From Alkalidesulfovibrio alkalitolerans DSM 16529 (GTDB taxonomy: Bacteria; Desulfobacterota; Desulfovibrionia; Desulfovibrionales; Desulfovibrionaceae), in NCBI RefSeq assembly GCF_000422245.1, contig NZ_ATHI01000005.1:62001-126000 (forward strand): DNA of 64,000 bases, in the 5' to 3' direction. Positions within the stretch are counted from its first letter, which is position 1, and each line of letters opens with the position of its first letter. Positions 6,615 to 52,335 of the stretch are shown one piece after another. A program made the translations under genes and the position numbers. The notes beneath the pieces are model-generated. The model was not told where the DNA came from. It saw nothing but the letters and a program-made list of their open reading frames with translations, and did not search any database.

Positions 6615-6740
6615 CAGACTGTCCCTAAAGCACCATCTGCTGCGTTGCTGCGAAAGCGCCGGATCCTCGCGTATATTCTAATACGCGTCGGCCCCGGCGC
6701 TTTCTTGCGCCTTGCATCTGGCGCTTTTTGAACAGTCTGC
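6615..6740 (+). repeat. Dispersed palindromic element, copy A
   Basis: An imperfect palindrome of about 126 bp beginning on the base after the glpX stop. Ends are inverted repeats (CAGACTGT at 6615-6622, ACAGTCTGC at 6732-6740). Just inside the right end is GGCGCTTTTT. The centre is a hairpin tip, CGCGTAT (6668-6674) against ATACGCG (6681-6687). The first arm carries CATCTGCTGCGTTGCTGCG and the second CTTGCGCCTTGCATCTGG; these arms differ, which gives the element an orientation. See copies B-K. Confidence 0.85.
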
Positions 6741-6785
6741 AAATCCGCGCTTTTCGATGCCCTGCCGAGCGCGAGCCTCTTGGGC

Positions 6786-6840
6786 GGCAAAGGCCCGTAA
6801 CGCCCCCCATCTGGGCATTTCGGGCCTTTGCCGTTTACTT
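6786..6840 (+). terminator. Hairpin terminator downstream of glpX
   Basis: A perfect 12-bp stem, GGCAAAGGCCCG (6786-6797) with CGGGCCTTTGCC (6821-6832), a 23-base loop, then GTTTACTT. The U tract is imperfect. It lies between glpX and the PilZ gene, after repeat A, so the tkt-glpX transcript may have two stop signals. Confidence 0.5.
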
Positions 6841-6916
6841 CCGGATGCCACCAGGTCGCAACACGATTGCTTTTTTCATGTTCATTCAGTACCTTGGCTT
6901 GCACAGGGAGCACTTG

Positions 6917-8074
6917 ATGGACACAGCGGGCACAATTCTGGTGTTTTCCGAAAATCCGGGGACCGGCAAGGCGCTCATGGCCGTGCTGGCCAAGCTCGGG
7001 CTTACCGACGTCGCGGTCGCCACCTCTCCCCAGGAGGCGGCCAAGGTATTGTTCGGGGGAAAGATGCGGCTCGCGGTCATCGACCATGTGCCGGGATCGT
7101 CCCAGACAGTGGCCCTCATCAAGGCTCTGCGCGAGCAGGAACGTACCCGCCTTCTTCCCCTTCTGATCCTTGCCGAGCCAGGCGAGAAGGCCCTGGCGGC
7201 CTTCGCCGCCAAGGACGAGCGAACCACGTGCGTGGCGAAACCCCTGGCCGCCCAAGCCTTCACCGCCGCTCTCAAAAACCTGCTCGCCCAGGCCAAAGCA
7301 CCCGGCGCGCCTGCCAAGGACGCCGCTCCTGGCGCGTCGCCGAGCGATCAGGCCCTGCGCGACTTGGCCCTGCTGCTGCGTGACCGCAAGGGCGCGGAGG
7401 CCGTGATCCTCGCGGAATCACTCATCACGGCCCACGGCACGCGCACCGACCTGCTCATGGCTCTGGCGCTGGCCCGCCATCTACTCGGGGAAACAGACAA
7501 TTACGTCGCAACGCTCTCGCGTATCATCGGCATAGAGCCTGACACGCCCGAACCGGCCCGGCAAGATCAGCCAGCCGCAGCAGCAGCGCCAGCCTCTGGC
7601 CGGGGCAACGCCGCAAGTTCCAAGAGTGGACTCAGGGGCGTCTGGGCAAGCCTCCCACCTCCCGAACGAAGACAAAAGGCCCGGCAACTCTATTCGCCCA
7701 GCCATGCCAAGCGAAACGCCCTTCGCATCTTCACCCCTTTCTGGAGCGCAGGCGCGCCAGGCGGCGAGGGGCGTCTGCAACTCGTGGACCTCTCCTTCGG
7801 CGGCCTGTGCATGGAGGCTCCGCGACCCGCCGTGGCGCGCGGCGCGGAGTTCGTCATCGACCTCTACGTCAAGGACGAGCTTGCCCTGCCGGGCGTGAAG
7901 ATCCGGGTCGTGCGAGTAGAGGACGAAACCGTGGGTTGTACGTTCCGCGAACTCGACCGACAGACCGAATCGCTCTTGAACCAACGGCTGCACGAAGAGC
8001 AGAAAAAAGGCGTGGCCGCGACCGGCGAACCGGGCGTGCCCAGCACCAAGAAAGTCATCAAGCTTTCGTTTTGA
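6917..8074 (+). CDS. PilZ-domain protein with degenerate receiver-like N-terminus
   Basis: A 385-residue protein. The N-terminal 120 residues (TILVFSENPGTGKALMAVL, RLAVIDH, LPLLILAE, CVAKPL) follow the alternating strand/helix order of a CheY-like receiver, with an Asp in AVIDH where a phospho-acceptor could sit. A middle helical, alanine-rich linker follows. The last 110 residues form a PilZ domain: RRQKARQ supplies the RxxxR element and DLSFGG the (D/N)xSxxG element that bind cyclic di-GMP in this family. The start at 6917 follows GGGAG; upstream in-frame codons fall in repeat A and were rejected. It probably links cyclic-di-GMP to a target such as motility; the target is not visible. Confidence 0.8.
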   Translation: MDTAGTILVFSENPGTGKALMAVLAKLGLTDVAVATSPQEAAKVLFGGKMRLAVIDHVPGSSQTVALIKALREQERTRLLPLLILAEPGEKALAAFAAKDERTTCVAKPLAAQAFTAALKNLLAQAKAPGAPAKDAAPGASPSDQALRDLALLLRDRKGAEAVILAESLITAHGTRTDLLMALALARHLLGETDNYVATLSRIIGIEPDTPEPARQDQPAAAAAPASGRGNAASSKSGLRGVWASLPPPERRQKARQLYSPSHAKRNALRIFTPFWSAGAPGGEGRLQLVDLSFGGLCMEAPRPAVARGAEFVIDLYVKDELALPGVKIRVVRVEDETVGCTFRELDRQTESLLNQRLHEEQKKGVAATGEPGVPSTKKVIKLSF

Positions 8075-8127
8075 CGCCTACGCACGCCATATCAGGCCGG
8101 TAAAAAAGCCCCATATGCTAAGAGCGG

Positions 8128-8721
8128 TTAGTTCTCCTGAAGCTTGTCGAGTTCCTTGATCAGCGTTTCCAGATCGGGCTGCTTGTCGATTTCGTGGACC
8201 ATGATGGTGCGGATGATGCCGTTCTTGTCCACGATGATCTCGGCTCGCTCGCTCGTGCCGTCGCCGCGCAAAAGCCCGTAGCGCGCCGCCGTGGCCCCGT
8301 GCGGAAAGAAGTCCGAGACCACGGGGAACCAGACCCCGCCCATCTCCCGGCACCAGGCGAAGAGCGAGGGCACGTTGTCCGTGGTGATGCCGATGACCAC
8401 GGCCCCGCGCGCCTCGATCATCTCCCTGCCCAGATTGTAGGCGGGGAACTGCTCCGAGCACACAGGCGTGAAGGCGGCGGGCACGAAGGAGAGCACCACG
8501 TGCTTTCTGCCCCGAAAGTCGGAAAGCGTGACCTTGCCGCCCAGGATCGAGGGCAGGGTGAAATCCGGAGCTTCCTGGCCCACAGCGACCTTCAGTTCAC
8601 TGTCGATGGGCTTCTTGGCTTCTCCGTAAAACACATTCACCGCCTGAGCCGCGCCGATCACGAACGCCGTCGCGCAAAGCCCCAGGATCACGGCGGAGAG
8701 AAATTTCCTGCCGACACGCAT
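8128..8721 (-). CDS. Exported peroxiredoxin (AhpC/TSA family)
   Basis: A 197-residue thiol peroxidase with an N-terminal signal or anchor (hydrophobic residues about 8-27). The peroxidatic motif is PAAFTPVCSEQ with Cys88, preceded by GQEAPDFTLP and followed by GITTDNVPS and DKNGIIRTIMV, typical of the AhpC/TSA fold. A second cysteine at 124 could resolve the sulfenic acid. Family members reduce peroxides using thioredoxin-like donors. It starts 4 bases after the TlpA-like thioredoxin gene stops, so the two are likely a secreted reductant/peroxidase pair. Confidence 0.88.
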   Translation of the reverse strand: MRVGRKFLSAVILGLCATAFVIGAAQAVNVFYGEAKKPIDSELKVAVGQEAPDFTLPSILGGKVTLSDFRGRKHVVLSFVPAAFTPVCSEQFPAYNLGREMIEARGAVVIGITTDNVPSLFAWCREMGGVWFPVVSDFFPHGATAARYGLLRGDGTSERAEIIVDKNGIIRTIMVHEIDKQPDLETLIKELDKLQEN

Positions 8722-8725
8722 GGCC

Positions 8726-10148: not shown

Positions 10149-10159
10149 ACGCTCTCCCC

Positions 10160-11851: not shown

Positions 11852-11896
11852 GAGACTCCTTGTCGGTTGGGCGTCGTCAAAACGACCATGAAGGCC

Positions 11897-12406: not shown

Positions 12407-12599
12407 GGGAAAGCGCTCCTTTGCTCTTTTCCGGGTTTCGACGCCCCGACCGCGCGAAGGCGTGGCATCACACGGCGAGAAACGATACAGGGGGCGTCAT
12501 CCGATTAGAAACCACTTCCGCCGATTTTTCGCAAGGTCTATTTCCCTGCGGCGACATTGCGCGGACTTTGGAACCGGCACGTCCAAGGCAGGCGTGAGC

Positions 12600-12702
12600 G
12601 GCGAAGCCGCGGGAACGCAAAGGAAAGAGCTTGCGCTCGCGTAATACGCGAGGGTCCGGCGCTTTTCGCGGCAACGCGGCAGATGGTGCTTTTGGGGCAG
12701 CC
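12600..12702 (-). repeat. Dispersed palindromic element, copy B (left arm degraded)
   Basis: Minus-strand copy. The right part is well kept: tip CGCGTA-A-TACGCG (12638-12650), GGTCCGGCGCTTTTCGCGGCAAC and GGCAGATGGTGCTTTT. The left arm is only vaguely similar to the consensus. It lies downstream of the lipoprotein gene ending at 12797, in the same orientation as that gene, but separated from its stop by a hairpin. Confidence 0.7.
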
Positions 12703-12750
12703 TGACGCCCGGCCCCGACGCATCGCACGATGCATCGAAGCCGGGCGTCA
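12703..12750 (-). terminator. Strong hairpin downstream of the 12.8 kb lipoprotein gene
   Basis: A perfect 11-bp stem, TGACGCCCGGC (12703-12713) with GCCGGGCGTCA (12740-12750). The interior GACGCATCG/CGATGCATC can extend the pairing. There is no U tract on either side, so it could be a Rho-independent terminator of weak type or an RNA-stabilising 3' stem. It lies 46 bases past the stop of the lipoprotein gene on the minus strand. Confidence 0.45.
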
Positions 12751-12796
12751 TTGCCCTTGCGGGGAAACCGGAATGCGCGAGGCCCGCGCCAAAGGC

Positions 12797-13369: not shown

Positions 13370-13415
13370 GGTCGTCTCCTTCGTCATGGCTTGGGTTGTC
13401 TCCCCACTGCCCCTT

Positions 13416-13542
13416 CAAACTGTTTCCCAAAGCGCCATCTGCTGCCGCGCCGCGGAAAATTCAATCCCCGGCGCATATCCTGAGCCATGCTGCGGCCTTG
13501 ACCCTTCCGTACGCCTTGCATCCGGCGCTCTTCGAGCAGCCC
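13416..13542 (+). repeat. Dispersed palindromic element, copy C (diverged)
   Basis: Plus-orientation copy with AAACTGTTTCCCAAAGCGCC and CATCTGCTGC on the left, and ACGCCTTGCATCCGGCGCTC with GAGCAGCCCG on the right. The central tip is lost. Unlike most copies it follows no stop codon: it lies between two divergent gene starts. Confidence 0.6.
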
Positions 13543-13591
13543 GTGGCACGGCTGCTTCTCGACAGCACGCCTATAGCAAAGCCTGGGCGGT

Positions 13592-14591: not shown

Positions 14592-14601
14592 GGGGGCGGC
14601 A

Positions 14602-15798: not shown

Positions 15799-15808
15799 GG
15801 AGGGCACC

Positions 15809-16732: not shown

Positions 16733-16733
16733 C

Positions 16734-18149: not shown

Positions 18150-18303
18150 GCCCGTGTCCGTCCCGGCTTCGGCCTGGCCCGCGCCTAGTAGACCCGGACC
18201 GCTCTTATTGTGCGTCTTTCTACAGTTCTTCTTGACGCCGTGCGGCGCGCCTGCGACTTTTCCCATTGCGCAATCCCGGCAATCTCCGCGCAAGGAGGGT
18301 TTC

Positions 18304-19632
18304 GTGCGCGACACCGGCACTCGCCACAAGGTGGTCATACTCGGAGCGGGTTTCAGCGGCCTTTGGGCAGCACGCACCCTTGCGGGCGGCCCCTGCGACG
18401 TGCTCGTGGCGGACCGCAACAATTACCACACCTTCCTGCCCCTGCTCTATCAGGTGGCCGCGGCCGAGCTCGAATCCGAACAGATCGGCTACCCCGTGCG
18501 CGGCATCTTCCGCCGCGCGGAAAACGTCTCCTTCGCCATGGGCGAGGCCACGGCCCTCGACCCCGCCGCCAGGACGCTCATCGTGGACGGCCGGGAGATC
18601 GCCTACGACACGCTCATCGTGGCCCTGGGCAGCGTGACCAACTTTTTCGGCGTGCCCGGAGCCGACACCCACGCCTTCCGTCTGAAGAGCCTGGAGCAGG
18701 CCATCTACCTGCGCAACCACATCATGGGCTGCTTCGAGAAGGCCGTCTCGTCCAAGGACCCGGCCGAGCAGCGCAGGCTTCTGACCTTCACCGTGGTCGG
18801 CGGCGGCCCCACGGGCGTGGAGTATGCCGGAGCCCTGGCCGAGCTGATCCGGGGGCCGCTGGCCAAGGATTTCCCGGCGCTCATCGCGGGCCAGGCGCGC
18901 GTGGTGCTCTTCGAGGCCATGGACGGCGTCCTGTACGGATTCCCGGACCCGTTGCGCAAGGAGGCGCTGCTCGCGCTGCGGCGCAAGGGTGTGCAGGTCT
19001 TTTTGGGCGCGCAGGTGGAGGAGGTGACGCAGCAGTACGTGCGGCTCAAGGACGGCAGCAACTTCCTGACCGAGACCGTGGCCTGGACCGCCGGGGTCAA
19101 GGCGCATCCGCTGCCCGCGCGGCTCGGGCTCACCTGCGCGCCAAACGGCAGGGTGCTCACGGACGAGACGCTACGCGTCAAGGGCATGCCCGACATCATG
19201 GCCGTGGGCGATATCTGCCAGATCGACGGCCGCCCGCCGCTGCCCATGGTGGCCCCGGCGGCCATCCAGCTAGGCCGCCACGCGGGGCAAAACGTGCTGC
19301 GGGCGCTCAAGGGCAAAAAGCAGAAGGCCTTCACCTATCGTGATAAGGGCAGCATGGCGACCATCGGCCGGGGCGCGGCCGTGGTGCGCTTCGCGGGCCG
19401 GTCGTTCACGGGTTTCACGGCCTGGGCGCTGTGGCTCTTCGTGCACCTGATGTATCTGGTGGGCTTTCGCAACAGGCTTTTGGTCATGGTCAACTGGGCC
19501 TGGGACTACTTCCTCTTCGAGCGCGCCGTGCGGCTGATCCTGCCGCGCGAGGGGCTGTGGAACAAGTCCAGCCTGGACCCGGAGGCCTTGAACGGCCAGG
19601 CCGCGCCCAAGACTCCGCCCCAAGCGCCGTAG
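18304..19632 (+). CDS. ndh: Type II NADH dehydrogenase (NDH-2)
   Basis: A 442-residue membrane-associated flavoprotein that passes electrons from NADH to quinone without pumping protons. The GTG start at 18304 is chosen because AAGGAGGG lies 4 bases upstream. FAD motif GAGFSGLWAA is at residues 14-23, YHTFLPLLYQVAAAEL follows, and the NADH-binding GGGPTGVEYAG is mid-protein. The C-terminal region has amphipathic/hydrophobic helices (TAWALWLFVHLMYLVGF) for membrane attachment. In an anaerobe it probably feeds menaquinone or aids redox balance; that is inference. Repeat copy D begins right after its stop. Confidence 0.92.
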   Translation: MRDTGTRHKVVILGAGFSGLWAARTLAGGPCDVLVADRNNYHTFLPLLYQVAAAELESEQIGYPVRGIFRRAENVSFAMGEATALDPAARTLIVDGREIAYDTLIVALGSVTNFFGVPGADTHAFRLKSLEQAIYLRNHIMGCFEKAVSSKDPAEQRRLLTFTVVGGGPTGVEYAGALAELIRGPLAKDFPALIAGQARVVLFEAMDGVLYGFPDPLRKEALLALRRKGVQVFLGAQVEEVTQQYVRLKDGSNFLTETVAWTAGVKAHPLPARLGLTCAPNGRVLTDETLRVKGMPDIMAVGDICQIDGRPPLPMVAPAAIQLGRHAGQNVLRALKGKKQKAFTYRDKGSMATIGRGAAVVRFAGRSFTGFTAWALWLFVHLMYLVGFRNRLLVMVNWAWDYFLFERAVRLILPREGLWNKSSLDPEALNGQAAPKTPPQAP

Positions 19633-19755
19633 CAGGCTGTTGAAAAAGTCCCATCTGCTGCGTTGCTGCGAAAAGCTCAAATCCTCGCGTATGCAAATAC
19701 GCGTCGGCCTTGAACTTTCCTTGCGCCTTGCATCTGGCGCTTTTGAACAGTCTGC
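19633..19755 (+). repeat. Dispersed palindromic element, copy D (near-consensus)
   Basis: It begins with CAGGCTGTTGAAAAAGTCCC on the base after the ndh TAG and ends GCGCTTTTGAACAGTCTGC. The tip is CGCGTAT (19686-19692), GCAA, ATACGCG (19697-19703). Both asymmetric arms are well kept (CATCTGCTGCGTTGCTGCG; TTGCGCCTTGCATCTGGCG). This is one of the best copies for building a consensus. Confidence 0.88.
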
Positions 19756-24708: not shown

Positions 24709-24727
24709 GGAGTGGTTGCAAACGCCG

Positions 24728-24752
24728 CAGACTGCGCTCTTCCAGCGGCCTG
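24728..24752 (-). repeat. Possible remnant of the dispersed element at the tig stop
   Basis: Read on the minus strand, the bases after the tig TAG run CAGGCCGCTGGAAGAGCGC and then AGTCTGC. These match both ends of the family with the whole middle missing, as if only the tips survived. It may be chance. Confidence 0.3.
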
Positions 24753-26084
24753 CTAGCCTTCGGCGGGCGCGGCTTCCCCGGCTTCGGGAGCCTTGGCCGG
24801 AACCTCCGTGACCTCGGCGGCCTCGTAGATTAGTTCCATGGCCTTGTCTGCCAGGATGCGGTCCTTGACGAGCACATGCATGCCGGTCTGCTCGTAATAC
24901 TGCTTGATGGTCTCGAAATCCTGGCCGGACTGCATGGCCACCTTGCGCATCTCGTTGTCGATCTCCTGCGGAGAGACGGTGAGCCCTTCCTTGGTGGCCA
25001 CAGCCATCAGGAATACCTGCACGCGCGAGGCCTGCTCGGCCGTGGGCTTGTACTCCTCGCGGAGCTGCTCCATGGTCTTGCCCGTGGATTCGAGGCTCTT
25101 GCCCTTGCGCTCCAGACGGTTCACGTGCTCGCCCACCAGGTTGTCGGTGGTGCGCTCCACGAGCGAGGGCGGCAGGGGGATGTCCATGCCCGCGATGATG
25201 TCGTCCAAAAGCTTCTTTTCGGCCACAGAGCGGTGCAGGGCCTTGCGCGAGGACTCGTAGGAGGAGGTGATGGCGTCGCGCAGAGCCTGGAAGGTCTCGT
25301 AGCCGCCGGCCTTCTTGGCCAGGGCGTCGTCGGCCGGGGGCAGAACCTTTTCCTTCACGGCCCGGATGTGGACGTGCATCTCCACGGTCTTGCCCGCCAG
25401 GTCGGGATTCAGGAAGTCCTCGGGGAAGGTGATCTCGCCCTTGCCCTGCTCGCTCGCGCCCAGGGTCTTGACCAGAGCCTCGAAGCTCTCCAGGGCTTGG
25501 CCCTTGCCGAGTTCGAGTTGGAAGTGCTGGGAGCGCAGCCCTTCGAAAGCCTTGTCCTGGCTGATGGCCGCGAAGTCGAGGATGACCACGTCGCCGTCGC
25601 GTGCCTTACGGTGCTCGCCGATGTCGCGCAGTTCGGCCATATTGCCCCGGATGCGCTCGATGACCTGATCGACCTCGGCCGCATCGACGCTCACGGCTTC
25701 CTGCTCGACCTTCAGCCCGCGGTACTCGGGCAGATTCAGGGCGGGCGGAACCTCGAAGCTGAAGGAATAGGTGTAGGGCTCGTCCTTGGCGATCTCGCCC
25801 TTGGAGTCCACGTTGATGCCGGAGACCGGCGAGAGCTTCAGCTCGGACATGATCTCGTTCAACTGGTAGTTGACCATGTCCTGCGTGGCCTCGGCCAGAA
25901 TCTGGCGCTTGAACTTGCCCTGAATGACGCTCATGGGCACCTTGCCCTTGCGGAAGCCCTTGATCTGGGCGGTTCGACCGTAGATGGCGGTGGTCGCGGC
26001 CAGGGAGGCGTTGACCTCTTCCGCAGGCACGGTGACGGTCACTTTCTTTTCGACCGGAGAGATATCTTCGATAGTATAGTCCAT
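24753..26084 (-). CDS. tig: Trigger factor (ribosome-associated chaperone)
   Basis: A 443-residue chaperone and peptidyl-prolyl isomerase that meets nascent chains at the ribosome exit. The N-terminal ribosome-binding domain has the signature-like FRKGKVPMSVIQGKF (G-F-R-x-G-x-x-P) near residues 40-53. The FKBP-like PPIase domain begins around KARDGDVVILDFAA, and the C-terminal helical domain follows. A tail rich in Ala, Glu and Pro is at the end. AAAAGGAG precedes the start. A good sigma-70 promoter lies about 60 bases upstream. Confidence 0.96.
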   Translation of the reverse strand: MDYTIEDISPVEKKVTVTVPAEEVNASLAATTAIYGRTAQIKGFRKGKVPMSVIQGKFKRQILAEATQDMVNYQLNEIMSELKLSPVSGINVDSKGEIAKDEPYTYSFSFEVPPALNLPEYRGLKVEQEAVSVDAAEVDQVIERIRGNMAELRDIGEHRKARDGDVVILDFAAISQDKAFEGLRSQHFQLELGKGQALESFEALVKTLGASEQGKGEITFPEDFLNPDLAGKTVEMHVHIRAVKEKVLPPADDALAKKAGGYETFQALRDAITSSYESSRKALHRSVAEKKLLDDIIAGMDIPLPPSLVERTTDNLVGEHVNRLERKGKSLESTGKTMEQLREEYKPTAEQASRVQVFLMAVATKEGLTVSPQEIDNEMRKVAMQSGQDFETIKQYYEQTGMHVLVKDRILADKAMELIYEAAEVTEVPAKAPEAGEAAPAEG

Positions 26085-26231: not shown

Positions 26232-26315
26232 TGGTGCGAGAGGCGGGACTCGAACCCGCAAGGCCATGCCGCCGGATCCTAAGTCCGGTGCGTCTACCAA
26301 TTCCGCCACTCTCGC
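26232..26315 (-). tRNA. tRNA-Leu (anticodon UAG)
   Basis: An 84-base cloverleaf on the minus strand. The acceptor stem GCGAGAG (26315-26309) pairs with CTCTCGC (26242-26236), followed by A and an encoded CCA. The anticodon arm is CCGGA-CTTAGGA-TCCGG, giving anticodon UAG. The T loop is GGTTCGAGTCC and a long variable arm fits leucine tRNA. Confidence 0.95.
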
Positions 26316-37751: not shown

Positions 37752-37792
37752 GGTCAAAAAGCGCGAGGGTCCGGACTCTTCGCGGCAACACA
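37752..37792 (-). repeat. Fragment of the dispersed element (E')
   Basis: A short first-arm fragment containing GCGAGGGTCCGGACTCTTCG and CGGCAACAC, minus orientation, 30 bp left of copy E. It looks like the survivor of a second insertion or an aborted tandem duplication. Confidence 0.5.
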
Positions 37793-37822: not shown

Positions 37823-37973
37823 CAGGCCGCTCAAAATACCATGTCGGCCTCAGGCTCAAACTGGCGTCAAATGCAAGGCGCGAGAGCCGGTCAAGACCGA
37901 CGCGTATCAAAAGAATACGCGAGGGTTTGACCGGCTCGAAGCAACGCCGCAGATGGCGCGTTTTCAGCGGCCC
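37823..37973 (-). repeat. Dispersed palindromic element, copy E
   Basis: Minus-orientation copy with tip CGCGTAT...ATACGCG around 37901-37921 (7-base loop), CAAATGCAAGGCGCGAGAG on the left arm and GAAGCAACGCCGCAGATGGC on the right. Its terminal repeat GGGCCGCTGAAAA, read on the minus strand, supplies the last codon region and the TGA stop of the transglycosylase gene, so element and coding sequence overlap here. Confidence 0.8.
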
Positions 37974-39223
37974 AAAAGGGGGCGGACCTTGTCAGCCATA
38001 GCCCAGACAGTGTTCACGTAGGCCTGAGACTGATTGTAGCGATAGATGGCCCGGCGCTGTCGCGCAGAGTTCTGGCCGCCCGGCCGGAAACCGTGGGCCT
38101 TCAGGAAATTGGCCAGGCTGTGCACCGCGTCCTCCTCCACGAAGAGGTCGATCACGCCGTCGCCGTCGGCGTCGATGCCGTAGGCCTGCACGTTCGTGGG
38201 CATGAACTGGCAGATGCCGATGGCCCCGTAGACCGAGCCGGGGATGTCCAGCGGATCGCGGCCGCAGGCCTCGGCCACGTCGAGCAGCGCGGTCAACTCG
38301 GCATAGGCCCAGTCGGCCTTCTCGCCGGTGCGTTTGATGAGCCAGGGCATCTGGTCGGGCAGCACCGCGCGCCCCTCGAAGGAAGGAGCGAGATCGTCCC
38401 ATTCGCGCGTGGCGGCCATGCTGGCCAGGGCCAGGAAGGCGCTGTGCCTGCCCAAGACGGCCCCGAACACGGTCTCCACGTTCAGGATGCCCAGCGCCAC
38501 TTCCGGAGGCACACCGTAGCGCTTCTCGACCTCGCGGAACATGTCCTTCCTGGCCTTGTAGAAACGCACCGCCTCGTCCACGCGCTCGGGGGTGAGCGCG
38601 CTTCGATAGACGAGGTGGGGCGTGGCCGCAGTCGTCTTGGGCGGCGGCGGCACGGTGAAATTCGCGGGAGCCTTATCCTTTGTGCGCTCCAGGACGTCGA
38701 GCAGCGCCCATGACGGCCAGCCCGAAACCTGCAATCCGTGATGGGCCTGGAACGCGCGCACGGAGGCCATGGTCATGTCGCCCGGCTTGCCGTCCACGGG
38801 CCCGGGCTTCCAGCCCAGCGCATCGAGGCGCTTTTGGACCCTGGCGTACATCCAGTCGCGGTACTTGATCTCGTAGAGCGAGCGCATCTTGCGGCCCATG
38901 ACCGCGGCGTCGTAAACCGCATCGGGCCTTGCGAAAAGCCGCGTCAGGTTCTCGCGCGAGAAGCCGTCCCCGGCTAGACGCTCGATGAGCGGCTTCCAGT
39001 GGGGCGCTGGAGCCGCGGGTGCATCGAAAGGCGGAGTCGCCGACTCTTTCTTTTCGGGAGTCGTCTGTCCGGCAGGCGAGGCCAGAACCGGAGCGGCCAA
39101 AATCAGCGCCCCAAGCAGCCAGACGAACAGAAACAATCCAAAACGATGCGTCGCGAAACATTCGCATCGCACAGGGCGATATGCGGCGTTGCATGCCGTC
39201 ACGGCGACTTTCGGAGTGTGCAT
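37964..39223 (-). CDS. MltB-type lytic transglycosylase with internal peptidoglycan-binding domain
   Basis: A 419-residue exported murein hydrolase. A signal anchor follows a basic N-terminus (FLFVWLLGALILAAPVLASPA, about residues 31-51). After a start of the MltB domain (RDWMYARVQKRLD), a peptidoglycan-binding unit (PGPVDGKPGDMTMASVRAFQAHHGLQ) is placed before the catalytic half. The catalytic Glu is near residue 246 in LNVETVFGA, then GAIGICQFMPTN and a calcium-loop-like DADGDGVIDLF. The family cleaves the MurNAc-GlcNAc bond. ATG 39223 follows GGAG. A promoter with TATTAT lies upstream. Confidence 0.88.
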   Translation of the reverse strand: MHTPKVAVTACNAAYRPVRCECFATHRFGLFLFVWLLGALILAAPVLASPAGQTTPEKKESATPPFDAPAAPAPHWKPLIERLAGDGFSRENLTRLFARPDAVYDAAVMGRKMRSLYEIKYRDWMYARVQKRLDALGWKPGPVDGKPGDMTMASVRAFQAHHGLQVSGWPSWALLDVLERTKDKAPANFTVPPPPKTTAATPHLVYRSALTPERVDEAVRFYKARKDMFREVEKRYGVPPEVALGILNVETVFGAVLGRHSAFLALASMAATREWDDLAPSFEGRAVLPDQMPWLIKRTGEKADWAYAELTALLDVAEACGRDPLDIPGSVYGAIGICQFMPTNVQAYGIDADGDGVIDLFVEEDAVHSLANFLKAHGFRPGGQNSARQRRAIYRYNQSQAYVNTVWAMADKVRPLLGR

Positions 39224-40152: not shown

Positions 40153-40584
40153 GATCGCCTCCCCGGCTGCGCGCATGATGAACATGACAAACGGCGCGCC
40201 ACGCTCCGCGCCGCAAAGGCGGCCCGGTCGTGGACGAATGAAGGGAGGCGGGGAATCAGGGATGTCGCTGGGGTTCGTCTCGCACAGGAATCATGGAGCA
40301 TGCTCCGCACGAACAGGGTTGGGTTTGCCGACGGCCTGAGACGGGATTTGCCGACAACCTCGACCAGGCGAAATGCCCGGCAGGGACGGTAATAGTGCCG
40401 AACGTTCCGGACGGCAAGAGGGGCGGCCTTCTTTTCCGGGCGGCGGGCAGACACGGCCCGACGGTTCACTCTCCAAATTGACAGCGGCCAATTGCAAGGC
40501 TAGGCAGGGACAGTGGAAAACATCCCGCGTTCAGCCGGAACCAGAACCGATCCGCCGCCCGCGCGCGGCGCACAGGGGGAAGCG
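40153..40584. other. 432-bp divergent intergenic region between the cysteine-cluster gene and trpB2
   Basis: No gene was called. It contains a perfect 12-bp palindrome GGAGCATGCTCC (40295-40306), a 9-bp direct repeat TTTGCCGAC at 40324-40332 and 40347-40355 (23 bp apart), and a TTGACA element (40478-40483) near trpB2. No tryptophan-rich leader peptide or T-box stem is visible. Confidence 0.55.
40478..40506 (+). promoter_or_regulatory. Weak candidate promoter of trpB2
   Basis: Perfect TTGACA (40478-40483) with a 17-bp spacer to TAGGCA (40501-40506). The -10 is poor, so an activator might be needed if this is real. Confidence 0.25.
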
Positions 40585-41940
40585 ATGTCAGACGAGACCA
40601 AGATCATCCTGCCCGAGAGCGAACTGCCCACGGCTTGGTACAACGTCTTGCCCGATCTGCCCACGCCCCTGCCGCCGCCCCTGGACCCGCAGACCCACAA
40701 GCCGGTGAGCCCGGACATGCTTTCCGCCATCTTCCCGCCCGCGCTCATCGAGCAGGAGATGTCCCAGGAGCGCTGGATTCCCATTCCCGAGGAAGTGCGC
40801 GAGATATACAAGCTCTGGCGGCCCTCGCCGCTGGTGCGCGCCCATCGCCTGGAGAAGGCGCTGGGCACCAGGGCCCGCATCTACTACAAGAACGAGTCGG
40901 TCTCGCCCGCTGGCTCGCACAAGCCCAACACCTCCGTGCCCCAGGCCTATTACAACATGAAGGCCGGAACGAGGCGCCTAGCCACCGAGACCGGGGCCGG
41001 GCAGTGGGGCACGGCCCTGTCCTTCGCCTGCCAGATGTTCGGCATGGCCTGCACCGTGTACATGGTCCGGGTGAGCTACGACGCCAAGCCCTATCGCGGC
41101 ATCCTCATCCGCACCTACGGGGCCGAGGTCTTCCCCTCGCCTTCCGACAAGACCCAGGCGGGCCGCGCGGCCCTGGTCGAGAATCCGGACAATCCCGGCT
41201 CGCTCGGCCTCGCCATCTCCGAGGCCGTGGAGGACGCGGCCACGCACGCCGACACCAACTATGCGCTGGGCAGCGTGCTCAACCACGTGATCTTGCACCA
41301 GACCGTCACCGGCCTGGAGACGAAGAAACAGCTCGCCATGGTCGGCGAGACGCCGGACGTGCTCATCGGCTGCGTCGGCGGCGGCAGCAACTTCGGCGGC
41401 CTGGTCTGCCCGTTCGTGCCCGACAAGCTGGCGGGCTCGAAGGTGCGTTTCGTGGCGGCCGAGCCGCAGGCCTGCCCGACCCTGACCAGGGGCGAGTATC
41501 GCTACGACTACGGCGACGTGGCCGGGCTTACGCCGCTGCTCAAGATGCACACCCTGGGGCACGGGTTTTATCCTCCGGCCATCCACGCCGGGGGGCTTCG
41601 CTACCACGGCGACGCGCCCATCGTCTGCTCGCTGGCCAAGGACGGGCTGGTGGAGGCCAAGGCCTACTACCAGAAGGAGGTCTTCGAGGCGGGCCGGATA
41701 TTCCTGCAAAGCGAGGGGTTCCTTCCCGCGCCCGAGACCACCCACGCCATCGCGGCGGCCATCGAGGAGGCGCGGGACGCGCCCGAGGGCAAGGTCATCG
41801 TGCTCCTCTACTCGGGGCACGGGATGCTCGACCTGGCGGCCTACGACGCCTACCTGCGCGGCGACCTGGAGAACTACGCCTACCCCGACGCGGCGATCAA
41901 AAAGGCCCTGGAGTCCTGCCCCAAGGTGGATGGATTCTAG
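40585..41940 (+). CDS. trpB: Tryptophan synthase beta-like protein, TrpB2 type
   Basis: A 451-residue PLP enzyme that joins indole and serine. The PLP lysine is Lys113 in [11 protein letters not shown], followed by [15 protein letters not shown] and the phosphate loop [11 protein letters not shown]. The long N-terminal extension with [13 protein letters not shown] and the motif HAGGLRYHG are marks of the TrpB2 branch, which lacks the TrpA-contact region and acts alone. No trpA or other trp gene is near, consistent with TrpB2. ATG 40585 follows GGGGGA. Confidence 0.9.
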
Positions 41941-42045
41941 CGGGCCGCTTGCGCAGCCTCACCTGCGGCGCTGTCGCGAAAACCCATGTCCGGCGCGTAT
42001 CGAAAGCATGCGCACTGGCCTGGGTTTTCGCGCGCATTGTGCCTC
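41941..42045 (+). repeat. Dispersed palindromic element, copy K (diverged)
   Basis: It starts on the base after the trpB2 TAG with CGGGCCGCTTGCGCAGCCTC. The first arm CACCTGCGGCGCTGTCGCGAAAA follows, then a tip-like GCGCGTAT...CATGCGC and a shortened second arm. Right terminal repeat is not recognisable. Confidence 0.5.
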
Positions 42046-42049
42046 CACG

Positions 42050-42122: not shown

Positions 42123-42212
42123 TGGCGGAGGGAGAGGGATTCGAACCCCCGGACCCCTTGCGGAGCCAACGGTTTTCAAGACCGCCGCAATCGACCGCTC
42201 TGCCATCCCTCC
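42123..42212 (-). tRNA. tRNA-Ser (anticodon UGA)
   Basis: A 90-base cloverleaf with a long variable arm on the minus strand. Acceptor GGAGGGA (42212-42206) pairs with TCCCTCC (42133-42127), then G and an encoded CCA. The anticodon loop is CTTGAAA, giving UGA. The T loop is GGTTCGAATCC. Confidence 0.95.
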
Positions 42213-42573
42213 GCGGGAAAGGGGTAAGTTGTTTACGGCAATCCCCCCCGTAAGGCAAGGGCAGCAGGGGAAAGCCCCGGCCGCCCGAACCCGCCAGCGA
42301 CGAAGAGCCCGGCGTCCGGCGCGATGACGGAAAGCCCTGCTCGGACTCGTCCGGCCCCGCCAGCGCCCGACTTTCCGGCAATGCGCCCTTCCGGCAACGC
42401 CGACCGCTTCTCCTGCTGCCTGGCAGGTTCCTTGAACCATACCGCTAGGCAGACTGTTCAAAAAGCATCAGCCGCAAGGCGCAAGCGAATTCGCGTCCGC
42501 CGCGTATCACACGCATGCGCGAAGGCCAGGATTCTTCGCGCCAGCGCCCCGGATGGCGCACTGGGGCGGTCTG
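42213..42573. other. 361-bp intergenic region between tRNA-Ser and mtnA
   Basis: No gene was found. The mtnA-proximal part is repeat copy F (42449-42573). The rest is GC-rich with several short repeats of CCGGCAA/CGCCGG type, and no clear promoter for the tRNA was identified. Confidence 0.5.
42449..42573 (-). repeat. Dispersed palindromic element, copy F
   Basis: Minus copy directly after the mtnA stop (CTA at 42574-42576). The left end is GCAGACTGTTCAAAAAGC and the right end GGCGCACTGGGGCGGTCTG. Tip is CGCGTAT with ATGCGCG. Arms are recognisable (GCAAGGCGCAAGCG; TTCGCGCCAGCGCCCCGGATG) but diverged. Confidence 0.75.
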
Positions 42574-43635
42574 CTACCGCTTTTGCCCGATGACCTTGGC
42601 GATGGACTCCGTGTAGGGCGGGGTCAGCACGCCCTTCTCCGTGATGATGCCCGCGATCAGTTCCGCCGGGGTCACGTCGAAGGCGAAGTTGTAGACCTTC
42701 ACGCCCACCGGGGTGATGGACGACTCGCCCGTGGGGTGCGTGACCTCGCGCGGGGTGCGCTCCTCGATGGGAATCTGCTCGCCCGTTGCGCAGCGCAGGT
42801 CGAAGGTGGACGAGGGCGCGGCCACGTAGAACGGGATGCCGTGCGCCTTGGCCAGCAGCGCCACGCCGTAGGTGCCGATCTTGTTGGCCGCGTCGCCGTT
42901 GGCCGCGATGCGGTCCGCGCCGACCACCACCTTGTCCACCAGCCCTTTCTTCATCAGCAGCGCGCAGGCGTTGTCGCAGGCCACGGTCACGTCCACGCCG
43001 CACTTGTCGAGCTCGTAGGCGGTCAGCCGCGCGCCCTGCAAAAAGGGCCTGGTCTCGTTGGCCACCACCGTGATCTTCTTGCCCTGCTCCACGGCCGAAT
43101 AGATCACGCCCACGGCCGTGCCCCAGCCCGCCGTGGCCAGCGCGCCCGCGTTGCAGTGCGTCATCACCCGGTCGCCGTCGGCGAGCAGGTTCGCGCCGTG
43201 CGCACCCATGGCCTTGTTGGTCTCCTCGTCCTCGCGCTGCATGGCCTTGGCCTTGTCCAGCCAGACAGTGGCCAGCGCGGGCAGGCCGATGCCCGGCCGC
43301 TCCGCCCACATGGATTCGAGCAGTTCCACGGCCCAGCGCAGGTTCACGGCCGTGGGCCGGGCGTTTCGCAGGGTGTCGAGCCTGGCCCGGAGCGATTCCG
43401 CCCAGGGGAGCAGCCCGTCGGTCTCGCGCAGCGTCTCGCGCGCGCAGAAATAGCAGCCGTAGGCGGCCGTGACGCCGATGGCGGGCGCGCCGCGGATGAC
43501 CATCTCCTGCAGCGCGTAGACCGTGGTCGCAAGGTCGCGCACCTCGTACCAGTCCTCGCGGCAGGGCAGGTAGCGCTGGTCCAGGAGCATCAGCCGATCG
43601 GCGTCGTGTTCGAAGCGGATGTGCGTGTTGAGCAT
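42574..43635 (-). CDS. mtnA: S-methyl-5-thioribose-1-phosphate isomerase
   Basis: A 353-residue eIF2B-like isomerase of methionine salvage, converting methylthioribose 1-phosphate to methylthioribulose 1-phosphate. The catalytic Cys is near residue 158 in [12 protein letters not shown] and the Asp near 240 in [36 protein letters not shown] is the N-terminal signature. The other mtn genes are not in the window. AAGGGGA precedes the start. Confidence 0.93.
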
Positions 43636-43678
43636 CGAAGAAATCCCCTTAAGAGGCTGTTGAAAAACTCGTTTTTTG

Positions 43679-43802
43679 CAGGCCGGTCAAAAAGTTTCAG
43701 ATGCAAGGCGCAAGAAAAGTTCAAGGCCGACGCGTAGTTGAAATACGCGAGGGTTTGAGCTTTTCGCGGCAACGCGGCAGATGAGACTTTTTCACCGGCC
43801 TG
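43679..43802 (-). repeat. Dispersed palindromic element, copy G (near-consensus)
   Basis: It has perfect 9-bp ends CAGGCCGGT (43679-43687) and ACCGGCCTG (43794-43802), directly after the stop of the flavoprotein gene. Tip CGCGTA...TACGCG. Arms are intact (CAGATGCAAGGCGCAAGAAAAG; TTTTCGCGGCAACGCGGCAG). A truncated plus-type end, GGCTGTTGAAAAACTCG, lies at 43655-43671, so an older copy may be nested beside it. Confidence 0.88.
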
Positions 43803-44906
43803 TTAGCCCTTGCATCGGGCGGCGATTTCGTCGGCCACGGCCACGCCGTCGCGCACCGCGGTGAAGATGATGTTCGGATGGCGGTTCTCGCTGATGGCTC
43901 CGGCCTCGAAGACGCCCATGTAGACGGGGCTGATGGCTCCGCCGATGGCGAAGACGCCCTTTTGGCTCGTCTCCAGCGACTGGTTCAGAAGGATCAGTTC
44001 CGAGCCCTCCTTGCCGATCTTGCAGATGCCCTCGGTGCAGGTGATCATCTGCAGCCCGAGCTTGCGGAAGACCGGCGCGGGCCCCTGCGAGCCGATGCAG
44101 GCGATGACGTTCTTCATGGGGAAGGACAGGCTTTGCAGGATGTAGACGCCGCCGTCGAGGTGCATCTTCTGGGTCTGCACCACGAGGCGTTCGATGCCGT
44201 CCTCGTCCACCTCGCCGAGCTTGGGCACGGCGTTGTGCAGGATCTTGATGTTGCCGCCGAGCAGGATCTCCTCGCCCATGTCGCGGGCCACGTCCTTTTG
44301 CACGCGCATGGTCGTGCGGCGGTGCCCCCAATAGACCGGCGTGGGGTCGTTGTTGGCGCGCTTGAAGCGCGAGAGCACGGCCACGATGTCGGCCGCGGTG
44401 CTGCCGCCGCCAAGCACCAGGGTGGGCGCGCCAAGAAAATCCTCGGGGTTCTCCAGGTTGCGGGCCACGGTCTTGGCCTCGCCGTACACGCCAAGCTCCA
44501 CCGGGATGTTGCTGCCGAAGGCCAGGACCACGTACCTGGCGTGCACCGCGCCCGAGTCCAGGGTCACGGCGAAGCCGTCCTTCTCGCGCGCAAGTCCCTT
44601 GAACTCATCGCCCAGGCGGATGGGAATGCCCGTCTCGTCCACGAAGGCCTCGATGCGCGCCAGAAACTCCTCCAGGTCTTCCTTTTCGCCCTGAGGGCGC
44701 ATCTGGGGGATGGCGAACTCGTCCTCCGTTCCCTTGGGCGTGGTGGGGTACACCCCCTTGCCCTTGGGATAGGTGTCGCGGATGCCTTGCAAAATCCGCC
44801 TGCCCTTTTCAGCGACAAGGCAGGAAAGGCCATGACGGATTGCCTGCGCGGCGCAGGCCAGTCCGCCCGGACCGGCTCCGATGATGGCGATGTCCACAGT
44901 GTTCAT
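43803..44906 (-). CDS. FAD/NAD(P)-dependent oxidoreductase without CxxC motif
   Basis: A 367-residue flavoprotein of the thioredoxin-reductase fold. FAD motif IIGAGPGGLACAAQA is at residues 7-21 and the NAD(P)-binding LVLGGGSTAADIVAVLSRF near 155-180. FAIGGAISPVYMG matches the C-terminal FAD contact. The redox CxxC of thioredoxin reductase is absent, so it resembles the YpdA/ferredoxin-NADP-reductase-type-2 branch; the substrate is unknown. ATG 44906 follows AAGGAG. The gene ends exactly at repeat copy G, and copy H lies upstream. Confidence 0.85.
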   Translation of the reverse strand: MNTVDIAIIGAGPGGLACAAQAIRHGLSCLVAEKGRRILQGIRDTYPKGKGVYPTTPKGTEDEFAIPQMRPQGEKEDLEEFLARIEAFVDETGIPIRLGDEFKGLAREKDGFAVTLDSGAVHARYVVLAFGSNIPVELGVYGEAKTVARNLENPEDFLGAPTLVLGGGSTAADIVAVLSRFKRANNDPTPVYWGHRRTTMRVQKDVARDMGEEILLGGNIKILHNAVPKLGEVDEDGIERLVVQTQKMHLDGGVYILQSLSFPMKNVIACIGSQGPAPVFRKLGLQMITCTEGICKIGKEGSELILLNQSLETSQKGVFAIGGAISPVYMGVFEAGAISENRHPNIIFTAVRDGVAVADEIAARCKG

Positions 44907-44951
44907 GGCTTTCTCCTTGCCCAGCACGTTGTCAAAACAAACATCGCTGCA

Positions 44952-45075
44952 CAGACCGCTCAAAAAGCGCCAGACGCAAGGCGCAAGAAAAGTTCAAGGC
45001 CGAAGCGGATTCCAAATACGCGAGGGTTTGAACTTTTCGCGGCAACGCAGCAGATGGCGCTTTTTGAGCGGTCTG
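44952..45075 (-). repeat. Dispersed palindromic element, copy H (longest perfect ends)
   Basis: Ends are a perfect 21-bp inverted repeat, 44952-44972 against 45055-45075, which contains CAGACCGCT, AAAAA and GCGCCA. It starts on the base after the gatB stop. Between them are CAAGGCGCAAGAAAAGTTCAA and TTCGCGGCAACGCAG arms; the tip is altered (GCGGATT against AATACGC). The T5 within the 21-bp arm would follow a GC-rich stem on either strand. Confidence 0.9.
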
Positions 45076-46512
45076 CTAGCTTTTGCCGAGCTTCGCGGCC
45101 AACAACTCGTTCACCAGCTTGGGGTTGGCCTGCCCCTTGGTCTTCTTCATGATCTGGCCGACGAAAAAGCCCGTCAGCTTGGTCTCGCCGCCCCTAAAGC
45201 GCTCGGCCTCCTTGGGGTTCTCGGCGATGACCGCGTCCACCACGGCGTCGAGTTCACCCGAGTCCGATATCTGGACCAGCCCCTTCTCGGCTACATACGT
45301 CTCGGGGTCCGCGCCGCCCGTCACGAGATCGCCGAAGATCTGCTTGCCGATCTTGCCGCTGATGGCCCCGGACTCCACGAGCTTGACGAGCTTGGCCAGA
45401 TGCCGCGGCGTGAGCTTGCACCCCTTAAGGCTCTGGTCACAATCCTTGAGCTCGCGCAAAAGCTCGCTGAGCATCCAGTTGGCGATCTTCTTGGGCTCGG
45501 GATAGGTCGCGGCGGCGGCCTCGAAATAGTCGGCCAGGTCTCGCTCGGCCGTGAGCAGGGCCGCGTCGCTCGCGCCAAGGCCGTACTGGGCCATGAAGCG
45601 CTCGCGCTTGGCCTTGGGCAACTCGGGCAGTTCCGAACGCCAACGGTCGAGCACAACCTCGTCCACGAGCACGGGCAGAAGGTCCGGGTCGGGAAAATAG
45701 CGGTAGTCGTGGGCCTCTTCCTTGCCGCGCATGGACTGCGTCACGCCCTTGTTCGCGTCGAACAGCCGCGTTTCCTGCACGATCGACTCGCCGTCCTCGA
45801 TGCAGTCGATGTGCCGACTGATCTCGTAGTCGATGGCCCGTTGCACGTTGCGAAACGAGTTGACGTTCTTGATCTCCGTACGCACGCCGAAAGCGGTCTC
45901 GCCCTTCAGGCGCACCGAGACGTTGGCGTCGCAGCGGAAGGAGCCCTCCTCCATGTTGCCGTCGCAGATCCCCAGGTAGACGAGGATGGCGCGCAGTTCC
46001 TTCAGGTAGGCCACGGCCTCCTCGGAGGAACGCAGGTCCGGCTCGGAAACGATCTCGATGAGCGGCACGCCGCAGCGATTGAGGTCCACGAAGCTTCGGT
46101 TCTCCACGGCGGAGTGGATGTTCTTGCCCGCGTCCTCCTCCATGTGGATGCGCGTCACGCCGATGACCTTGCGCTCGCCGCCCGCCTCGATTTCCACGCG
46201 GCCGCGCTCGCACAGCGGCTGCTCGTACTGGCTGATCTGATAGGCCTTGGGCAGGTCGGGGTAGAAATAGTTCTTGCGCGCGAAGATGCTCTTCAGGTTG
46301 ACCATGGCCTCGATGGCCATGGCCATCTTGCAGGCGTACTCCAGGGCGCGCTCGTTCATCACCGGCAGCACGCCTGGCATGCCCGCGCAGACCGGGCAGA
46401 CGTTGGTGTTGGGCTCGTCGCCGAAGCGCGTGGCGCAGGCGCAGAATAGCTTGGTGTTGGTCGTGAGTTGGGCGTGAACCTCAAGCCCGATGACGGCTTC
46501 GTATTGTGCCAT
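45076..46512 (-). CDS. gatB: Asp-tRNA(Asn)/Glu-tRNA(Gln) amidotransferase subunit B
   Basis: A 478-residue subunit of GatCAB that corrects mischarged Glu-tRNA(Gln) and Asp-tRNA(Asn). The start [16 protein letters not shown] and motif [15 protein letters not shown] (zinc site CxxC) are diagnostic, with [25 protein letters not shown] and [17 protein letters not shown]. The C-terminal YqeY-like tail ([23 protein letters not shown]) is present. ATG 46512 is preferred over an upstream in-frame extension because AAGGATG is just upstream and homologues begin here. gatA and gatC are not in the window. Confidence 0.96.
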
Positions 46513-46640
46513 GCGTGAACATCCTTCTCGGGAAAATGGCGGGACGCACCGGCCCCAAGACGTGACTATAGCCCCACGGCGACGCCGGGGCAAGGCCGCC
46601 TCCCCGGGGCGGCCATCAGCCTGATGAAAAACACCGCGGG

Positions 46641-46711
46641 GCGGACTGTCCGAAAATCTCCAGGGGCGGCGCCTTGGCGGCAACGCCGCAGATGGCGCCT
46701 TTCACAGACTG
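46641..46711 (-). repeat. Dispersed palindromic element, copy I (short)
   Basis: A 71-bp copy lacking most of the second arm. Left end CGGACTGTCCGAAAA, right end GGCGCCTTTCACAGACTG abutting the stop of the DUF4254-like gene. The first arm GGCGGCAACGCCGCAGATGG is kept. Confidence 0.65.
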
Positions 46712-48591: not shown

Positions 48592-48607
48592 GGAGTTATC
48601 CTTGAGG

Positions 48608-51207: not shown

Positions 51208-51289
51208 GGGGCGAGTTGTAGGAGAAAGGAACGAATCATTCAAGCCCGGCGCGACCTGAAAAAAATCGACGAGAGCGGCGGTTCCCCCC

Positions 51290-51317
51290 TAAAGATCGCA
51301 ACCCCTTCAGCCGATAA
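51290..51317 (+). promoter_or_regulatory. Sigma-28 (FliA) promoter of the FlgM-associated gene
   Basis: TAAAGATC (51290-51297), 12 bp, GCCGATAA (51310-51317). The -10 box is a perfect match to the sigma-28 consensus and the -35 keeps TAAA. Counting from TAAA the gap to the -10 box is 16 bp. The following ATG is at 51344. Confidence 0.72.
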
Positions 51318-51343
51318 CGCTGGCGAAAGGGAGTGAATCAACC

Positions 51344-51757
51344 ATGCTCACCAACCCCTACTCCGTCCGCGCCATGCTGCGCACCTACGGCAAGCAGCTC
51401 GTCACGGGCCGCAGGCTGGCGAGGTATTTGCGCGGCGCGCGGGAGCCCGACGCGGCGGACGACGCCGGGCTGCGAAGCGCCAGGCGCCGGGCGCTGGTGG
51501 AGAAGGTGGCGCGGGAGATCATCGACAACCTGCTCGTGGCCGGGGAGGAAAACCCGCTCGTTGAGGAGATCAAGGAGGCCTTGAACGAACGATTCAGGTC
51601 TCGGCTTCTTTTCGAATATCCTTTTCTGGAACAGGAGTTGCAAATTTTTCGCGAGACGCCGGGCGGTGTCCAGGAATTGACGCCTCCTGAAATGAACGAA
51701 GTTCTTGTCGCCTTGTGGGACATCACAACGCAAAAGGTTGACGAGACAATGCTTTAG
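51344..51757 (+). CDS. FlgM-associated protein, DVU0524-like
   Basis: A 137-residue protein encoded just upstream of flgM. It is mostly helical, with the basic RTYGKQLVTGRRLARYLRG early, VEKVAREIIDNLLVAGEENPLVEEIKEAL in the middle and an acidic, hydrophobic FEYPFLEQELQIF near residue 90. It matches, as far as I recall, the DVU0524 family found next to flgM in Desulfovibrio; its biochemical role is not established. It is driven by a sigma-28 promoter, so it should be expressed late in flagellar assembly. Confidence 0.75.
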   Translation: MLTNPYSVRAMLRTYGKQLVTGRRLARYLRGAREPDAADDAGLRSARRRALVEKVAREIIDNLLVAGEENPLVEEIKEALNERFRSRLLFEYPFLEQELQIFRETPGGVQELTPPEMNEVLVALWDITTQKVDETML

Positions 51758-51784
51758 CACGAAGGCTCGATCGGCCCTGAAAAC

Positions 51785-51812
51785 TAAAGAATACCGCGCC
51801 GCCGACCGATAG
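51785..51812 (+). promoter_or_regulatory. Sigma-28 (FliA) promoter of flgM
   Basis: TAAAGAAT (51785-51792), 12 bp, ACCGATAG (51805-51812). The gap between TAAA and the -10 box is 16 bp, identical to the promoter 495 bp upstream. The -10 shares CCGATA with the consensus. It implies autoregulation: FliA would drive its own anti-sigma factor. Confidence 0.6.
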
Positions 51813-51865
51813 AGTTCTTGACAACCTTTCGGGCTGATGTATCCCCGAAAGGAAGGCAGGGAACC

Positions 51866-52174
51866 ATGGAAATCAAAAAGCTGCTGGTAGGGGCCAACCC
51901 TTACGAAAAGACCGTCGAAAAGATCGACCGCGAGCGCGCCGAGGCGGCCGCCAAGGCCCGCAAGGCCGAGGCCACCGGCGACAAGGTCGCCATTTCCGAG
52001 GACGCGGCCCTGCGCAGCGTGGCCGTGCGAGCGGCCACGGTCGAGCCGGACACGCGCGCCGAAAAGATCGCGGCCTTGAAGGCCCAGATCCAAAACGGCA
52101 CCTACGAGCCCGACAACAAGAAGATCGCCGAGGGCATCGTGCGCGAGGACCTGAGCATCTTCCTCCAGTCCTGA
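51866..52174 (+). CDS. flgM: Anti-sigma-28 factor FlgM
   Basis: A 102-residue protein that binds FliA and is exported when the hook is complete. The C-terminal sigma-binding part is recognisable: TRAEKIAALKAQIQNGTYEPDNKKIAEGIVREDLSIFL. The N-terminal half is charged and low-complexity, as expected for a disordered exported tail. AGGAAGG precedes ATG 51866. Confidence 0.93.
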   Translation: MEIKKLLVGANPYEKTVEKIDRERAEAAAKARKAEATGDKVAISEDAALRSVAVRAATVEPDTRAEKIAALKAQIQNGTYEPDNKKIAEGIVREDLSIFLQS

Positions 52175-52206
52175 ACCAACGGGAATCCTTCCTATTGCGC
52201 AATCCT

Positions 52207-52235
52207 GGCCGGAGGCGGAGCCTCCGGCCTTTTTT
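52207..52235 (+). terminator. Intrinsic terminator of flgM
   Basis: A 10-bp stem GGCCGGAGGC (52207-52216) with GCCTCCGGCC (52220-52229), a 3-base loop, then TTTTTT. It lies 32 bases past the flgM stop. Confidence 0.85.
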
Positions 52236-52289
52236 GTTGCCTGCCTCTCCCGTTCCTTGAAATGCCCTTCCATCAAATCCCGCTTCCGG

Positions 52290-52335
52290 CCCTTTTTGCC
52301 GCAACGCTGCGGATGAGGCTTTTTTCAACAGCCCT
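52290..52335 (-). repeat. Fragment of the dispersed element (copy J)
   Basis: Only the first arm and one end survive: TTTTTGCCGCAACGCTGCGG, GATGAGGC and TTTTTTCAACAGCCCTG, minus orientation. It follows flgM and its terminator on the plus strand, so it is one of only two copies that do not point with the preceding gene. Confidence 0.55.

Follow-up and report, generated by a model that had tools for sequence, protein, structure and literature searches.

Why does an imperfect palindrome of about 125 bp recur between the genes of a 64,000-nucleotide stretch of Alkalidesulfovibrio alkalitolerans DSM 16529 (contig NZ_ATHI01000005.1, positions 62,001 to 126,000; the whole stretch is hereafter the window), and how did it come to lie there? 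The repeat is a miniature inverted-repeat transposable element (MITE), a non-autonomous DNA transposon. It is a short non-coding multicopy unit with terminal inverted repeats, target duplications and empty sites in relatives, and its ends are shared with an autonomous transposon, namely the insertion sequences (IS) of genomes G175, G302 and G131. What places it above an ordinary MITE is a strand-specific fold found across phyla together with exact placement at stop codons. We consider it likely that the unit, ~150 bp long, is moved by an IS1182-like DDE transposase and lands mainly at YTAR sites, including those at stop codons.

From 35 copies in the window's genome (G000, 3.2 Mb in 32 contigs) we derived R1, a covariance model for the 124-nt core. 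With a threshold of E<1e-6 it recovers seven copies of full length from the window (A, C, D, E, F, G and H); because A, D, G and H belong to the training set, the independent window matches are C, E and F alone. An earlier note, made from the letters of the window alone, had counted at least eleven copies of ~125 bp, plus fragments. These seven stand, whereas B, I and J represent right halves alone and K amounts to a degenerate look-alike, its architecture present by eye but its similarity only ~60% and its R1 score not significant. B, I, J and two further stretches (37754-37792 and ~24721-24752) make up five half copies or fragments, all of the right half. That the repeat is dispersed and non-coding is borne out: it has no open reading frame (ORF) of its own, and a search for further copies, proposed in the same note as a check, found many of them, copy H matching at least 40 places in G000 by BLAST, with 79-92% identity for the full-length ones. 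Fragments included, there are 52 matching places in 187 kb (the window and targeted stretches), while 13 untargeted G000 stretches (247 kb) hold two copies by R1; the window is thus richer than the genome average. Place counts, identity and folding z-scores exclude chance as the source of the family.

The complete genome G031, which belongs to the same order as the window's genome, shows the borders directly: many near-identical copies read CTGAGTGTTGAAAAAGTCCTTATCCG / GCAGTCCGTTCAAAAA ... TTTTTCAACGGACTG with identical 4 bp NTAN on either side, which defines a unit of ~150 bp. The whole element thus has two parts, the left terminal repeat of 25 nt and the hairpin core of 124 nt; the earlier note had taken the core for the full extent, and the true left end lies ~25 nt outside it. 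The start of the core is a second copy of the terminal repeat and pairs with the right end. A terminal inverted repeat, CAGNNTGTTGAAAAA, is found at each end and the element's ends read CAGNCYGTTGAAAAA, the left end having the form ..G(T/C)TGAAAAA(G/C)TC and the right end the complement CAGNCYGYTGAAAAA; the supposed classes of terminal repeat dissolve into the drift of one 15-nt end. Most near-identical G031 copies show exact NTAN duplications round the 150-bp unit (GTAA three times, ATAA, CTAA and CTAG twice each, ATAG, ATAT, TTAT and CTAT). Among G000 copies, window copy G and loci L043, L047 and L050 show the left end most clearly, with CTAG or TTAG adjoining it. YTAR is the 4-mer past the right end in 45 of 72 copies from named public genomes, and 18 of the 72 repeat the right-end 4-mer on their left side at an offset of 25 or 26, all other offsets giving fewer than four. 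Whole target palindromes are duplicated instead of 4 bp in L045 (25 bp) and L044 (20 bp), and similarly in L007 and L149. A duplication of this kind at insertion has been reported for the IS1182 family (PMC5678879). The palindromes on either side of these four copies are terminator-like, 20-31 bp long.

Empty sites were sought by comparing the joined flanks of occupied sites, including those of window copies G and H, L036 and L016 of G031, with relatives. The empty form of the G, H and L036 sites is present in G001 and G002, and that of L016 in G042 (91% identity) and G026. Together with the near-identical G031 copies and their target duplications, these empty sites show recent mobility. At least 15 near-identical copies (L013-L031) lie in the G031 genome, which is devoid of IS4/IS5/IS1182-type transposase domains; they represent a recent burst whose transposase is missing. 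No vehicle was found, as neither plasmid or phage records nor 2.9 million viral contigs gave a match at the sensitivity used, and the orientation of copies shows no bias with respect to GC skew, that is to the replication strand. Tandem copies occur in L006 / G002 (contigs C62, 25509-25968, and C63, 92506-93217; three copies each, with periods of ~168 and ~290 bp), so that the element multiplies in arrays too. Head-to-tail pairs are present in L037 (1983-2226), L049 (1816-2060) and L043 (15221-15508), the members of which partly share a terminal repeat or are separated by a duplicated GGCCTTTGGCC palindrome.

The long hairpin with A5 and T5 tracts predicted in the earlier note is confirmed, single copies folding at z = -4.3 to -10.7, and the base-pair covariation that it named as a further check is strong: in the 35 copies of one genome, both-sided changes occur in 23 of 42 pairs, with 118 double-change cells vs 29 after shuffling and 4-21 in slid controls. 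The unpaired motifs AGATGCAAGGCG and GCAACGCNGCAGATG are nearly invariant. The two strands are not equivalent. For the four base pairs between A5 and CAGATG, placed by the flanking motifs and not by folding, the strand starting CAGGCYGYTCAAAAA shows 83 Watson-Crick, 34 G-U and 2 A-C pairs over 32 distinct combinations of the cross-phylum set, and the same pairs in G000 give 51, 18 and 4; helix 4 of the G000 alignment has 23 G-U vs 2 A-C, all these counts coming from related copies and hence from events that are not independent. Of 61 distinct cross-phylum copies, 60 are also more stable as the CAGGCYGYTCAAAAA strand, by ~9 kcal/mol. Because a DNA cruciform would lack such an asymmetry, the fold matters as a single strand: the strand starting CAGGCYGYTCAAAAA has to fold, as either RNA or single-stranded DNA. 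Scanning the copies revealed no promoter-like site, and no Rfam family scored above its gathering score (best, 23.5 bits for a miRNA model with a cut-off of 100). In helix 4 of alignment A1 (columns 36-50 with 74-89), block variants (AAAGTTCAA/TTTGAACTTT, AAAGCGCCGG/CCGGCGCTTT and GAGCCGGTCAA/TTGACCGGCTC) look like a joint replacement of both arms, which template switching within the hairpin could produce.

Placement at gene ends was assessed by an exact stop-codon test with codon scores, random positions serving as control. In 32 of 72 cross-phylum copies the right end adjoins the last base of an open frame's stop codon, nearly always at offset 0, and in G000 the right end falls exactly at a stop codon in 20 of 36 copies, against 1.6% of random positions. 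The stop is retained because it sits in the duplicated target, YTAR containing TAG or TAA. In 247 kb of G000 there are 222 YTAR sites, 34 at stop codons and 97 intergenic; target choice and selection against insertions within genes therefore predict ~26% stop abutment, and do not account for the remaining excess. Cases at the left end are fewer, perhaps only since left ends have decayed. Twelve of the 36 copies in G000 lie between convergent genes. Transcription from the abutting gene usually yields the less stable of the two strands, so selection is not for a simple hairpin at the 3' end of that gene.

Two of the candidate partners, in G302 and G175, came to light through similarity to the clade of the L116 transposase. 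G302 and G175 contain 1.5-kb IS with a transposase of 456-482 aa, CAGCCCGTTGAAAAA on either side and duplications ATAG, CTAT and ATAA (G302) or ATAA (G175). L116, from the window's own family, is an IS-like element with ends CTGACTGTTGAAAAACTC / CTGGCCGTTGAAAAAAAC and duplication TTAA, the only case of paired inverted ends round a gene in all fetched loci; its transposase matches the IS1182 profile at 4e-36 (125 bits over 220 aa, below the cut-off of 270 bits). A bona fide IS1182 in G027 passes the curated cut-off with 326 bits and has related ends and duplications TTAA, TCAA and CTAA. The IS that share the element's ends and duplications measure 1.4-1.5 kb, and all those found carry an IS1182-like gene. 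Judging from these sequences, an IS1182-like transposase would be what moves the element. A distant relative of the putative partner transposase is carried by another IS (L295 of G464, 1275-2838), with ends GGGGGTGTTGAAAAA and GTTGT flanking both sides.

The family extends over several phyla. Within the window's own phylum, R1 detects it in 119 of 395 genomes and 79 of 246 genera, both lower bounds as few candidates were scored per genome; the matches listed all span model positions 1-124, and the core keeps a near-constant length of 124 nt over ~80 genera. An exact pattern scan of public genomes gave at least 120 matching stretches, with Deltaproteobacteria/Syntrophales, Methylomirabilota, Rokubacteria and Omnitrophota among the names of the matches listed. 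Most of these cross-phylum sources are metagenome-assembled genomes, in which several bins and contigs per group concur. Subfamilies track host groups: in 50 of 50 cases a copy has its nearest relative within its own group, and copies from different groups share no more than 83% identity, which argues for old residence and not recent exchange. Bacterial MITEs are usually young and limited to few species, whereas here length, fold and unpaired motifs are kept over ~80 genera and further phyla, a long residence that raises the question of what maintains the structure. The earlier note, right about the repeat and its hairpin, had missed this spread over phyla, as well as the left end, the target duplication, the IS1182-like link, the stop-codon abutment and the strand-specific wobble.

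We propose that an IS1182-like DDE transposase encoded elsewhere would recognise both terminal repeats and insert the element mainly at YTAR with a 4-bp duplication, or at stem-loops, the palindrome then being duplicated in full. YTAR is scarce within the genes of a GC-rich genome and enriched at stops, leading to frequent landing on TAG or TAA, and the duplicated target keeps the stop and leaves the gene unharmed. Once inserted, the element would be transcribed as a long hairpin, flanked by A5 and T5, that probably terminates or shields transcripts in either direction; compensatory changes maintain the hairpin. More tentatively, and with less than even confidence, the element may be viewed as a mobile one whose structured nucleic-acid cargo is selected in a strand-specific way in three or more phyla: a conserved partner would recognise one strand of the hairpin, as RNA or single-stranded DNA, through the unpaired motifs AGATGCAAGGCG / GCAACGCNGCAGATG, while an IS1182-like transposase spreads copies to YTAR on stops. 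Several observations weigh against the proposal. The weakest link is that no genome shown combines an intact IS1182-like element with recent copies bearing identical ends. Only the terminal 15-18 nt are common to the element and the IS, which means that the hairpin did not arise by internal deletion of an IS. Neither G000 nor G031 has IS4/IS5/IS1182-type domains, and nothing in G000 matched either the IS1182 profile or the L128 transposase; in these two genomes, the transposase is lost or another one is acting. A recognisable left end is missing in many copies. Simple bidirectional termination does not account for the strand asymmetry, and a terminator scan left copy G without a match and gave copy H a single one, on one strand.

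The identity of the transposase is where an alternative first comes in, since the L116 protein also scores on an IS5 profile and a family with similar ends, of the IS5/IS427 or IS701 type, could be the one that acts. Both types are reported with TA-centred targets, and some IS5 and IS701 members use 4-bp YTAR ones. We nevertheless find this improbable: IS701 was tried as host transposase in the copy-rich genomes and rejected, its DDE_5 domain being absent from G000, G001, G002 and G031, DDE_Tnp_1 is absent from G000 and G031, and each element found here with the same ends and duplications has an IS1182-like gene. A repeat of the repetitive extragenic palindromic (REP) or bacterial interspersed mosaic element (BIME) type, propagated by a Y1 (RAYT) transposase whose substrate is the single-stranded hairpin, would also give extragenic imperfect palindromes near gene 3' ends with a strand-asymmetric fold, and Y1 genes do exist in G031. 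It is very improbable given that the copy-rich genomes G000, G001, G002, G006 and G011 have no Y1_Tnp match, that terminal inverted repeats, 4-bp target duplications and a 150-bp unit are foreign to REPs, and that copy orientation is unbiased with respect to GC skew. The label REP/BIME- or MITE-like in the earlier note can accordingly be narrowed to its second half.

The strongest challenge concerns function. The repeat could be a domesticated structured RNA (e.g. a small RNA or an RNA-processing signal), formerly mobile and now of benefit to the host at gene ends, as its covariation, its near-constant 124-nt length over ~80 genera, the conserved unpaired AGATGCAAGGCG and GCAACGCNGCAGATG, the strand-specific G-U wobble and the subfamilies per host group would suggest. 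Yet mobility is recent (near-identical G031 copies with duplications, empty sites), copies are not preferentially oriented so that the mRNA of the abutting gene would carry the stable strand, and neither an Rfam relative nor a promoter-like site was found; we regard this reading as rather unlikely. Ordinary bidirectional intrinsic terminators, alike by convergence, would explain an A5/T5 hairpin next to stops and often between convergent genes, as in the G000 cases above, but hardly an identity of 79-92% over 124 bp that includes unpaired positions, nor target duplications and empty sites; as a sole account this is refuted and scarcely credible. Integron attC sites, considered for their strand-specific fold after stops, were excluded by the target duplications and because, by inspection, RYYYAAC...GTTRRRY core sites are absent from the ends.

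Table 1. Copies, fragments and tRNA genes in the window (bits, score with covariance model R1; E, BLAST E-value).
Feature	Position	Strand	Remarks
Copy A, hairpin core	6615..6739	-	136.2 bits; right end adjoins TAG stop (6612-6614) of ORF 5475-6614(+)
Copy B, right-half copy	12643..12704	+	E 4.6e-16
Copy C, diverged core	13416..13543	-	60.6 bits
Copy D, hairpin core	19633..19754	-	123.4 bits; right end adjoins TAG stop of ORF 18154-19632(+)
Right-arm fragment	24721..24752	+	adjoins CTAG stop of ORF 24753-26084(-)
tRNA gene	26235..26315	-	
Fragment beside copy E	37754..37792	+	E 4e-4
Copy E, core with ~26 nt extra after position 14	37823..37974	+	92.8 bits for 37848-37970; alignment
Copy K, degenerate look-alike	41941..42045	-	directly after TAG stop of ORF 40513-41940(+)
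tRNA gene	42126..42212	-	between copies K and F
Copy F, diverged core	42450..42573	+	46.4 bits; right end adjoins stop of gene 42574-43635(-)
Copy G, left flank TTAA	43649..43652		target duplication, one mismatch vs right copy
Copy G, full-length element	43653..43802	+	138.5 bits; left end and flanks; empty site in G001, G002
Copy G, left terminal repeat	43653..43678		GAGGCTGTTGAAAAACTC..
Copy G, hairpin core	43679..43802		
Copy G, right flank TTAG	43803..43806		contains stop codon (TAA, - strand) of gene 43803-44963
Copy H, hairpin core	44952..45075	+	138.4 bits; empty site in G001/G002; right end adjoins CTAG, stop codon of gene 45076-46683(-)
Copy I, right-arm fragment	46667..46702	+	E 3e-5
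Copy J, right-arm fragment	52292..52333	+	E 9e-6

The overlap of YTAR with the stop codon explains how such elements can be placed harmlessly at gene ends, and the strand-specific wobble makes the choice between selfish DNA and functional RNA a testable one. In practice, the covariance model can be used to annotate many unnamed intergenic repeats in Desulfobacterota and their relatives. No published name for the element was found in the literature searched, and sequence strings in papers gave nothing relevant, but several known systems resemble it in part. From the IS1182-family IS (including IS1272) and their MITEs it differs by having no transposase and by the 124-nt covarying hairpin, which has no counterpart in the IS, and its usual target is YTAR with a 4-bp duplication, not stem-loop replacement. 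REP/BIME sequences with RAYT are likewise extragenic palindromes in many copies, but REPs are 20-40 nt long with a GTAG/CGTC tag (PMC3733652) and, unlike the element, lack terminal repeats and duplications, RAYT moreover being absent from the copy-rich genomes listed above. In Geobacter metallireducens, multicopy intergenic sequences, interpreted as putative IHF/HU or regulator sites (PMC2700814), may include relatives. The Chunjie MITE of Geobacter uraniireducens, again from a delta-proteobacterium, likewise has conserved ends and duplications (PMC10969869), but is set apart by its length of 178-235 bp. ERIC (enterobacterial repetitive intergenic consensus) or IRU (intergenic repeat unit; ~127 bp) is, by description, a single long imperfect palindrome of similar size, intergenic, MITE-like and present in many species (PMC10969869, PMC2759123), from which the element is distinguished by its hosts, its 4-bp YTAR target, an identified autonomous relative and its spread over several phyla, and probably also by its sequence.

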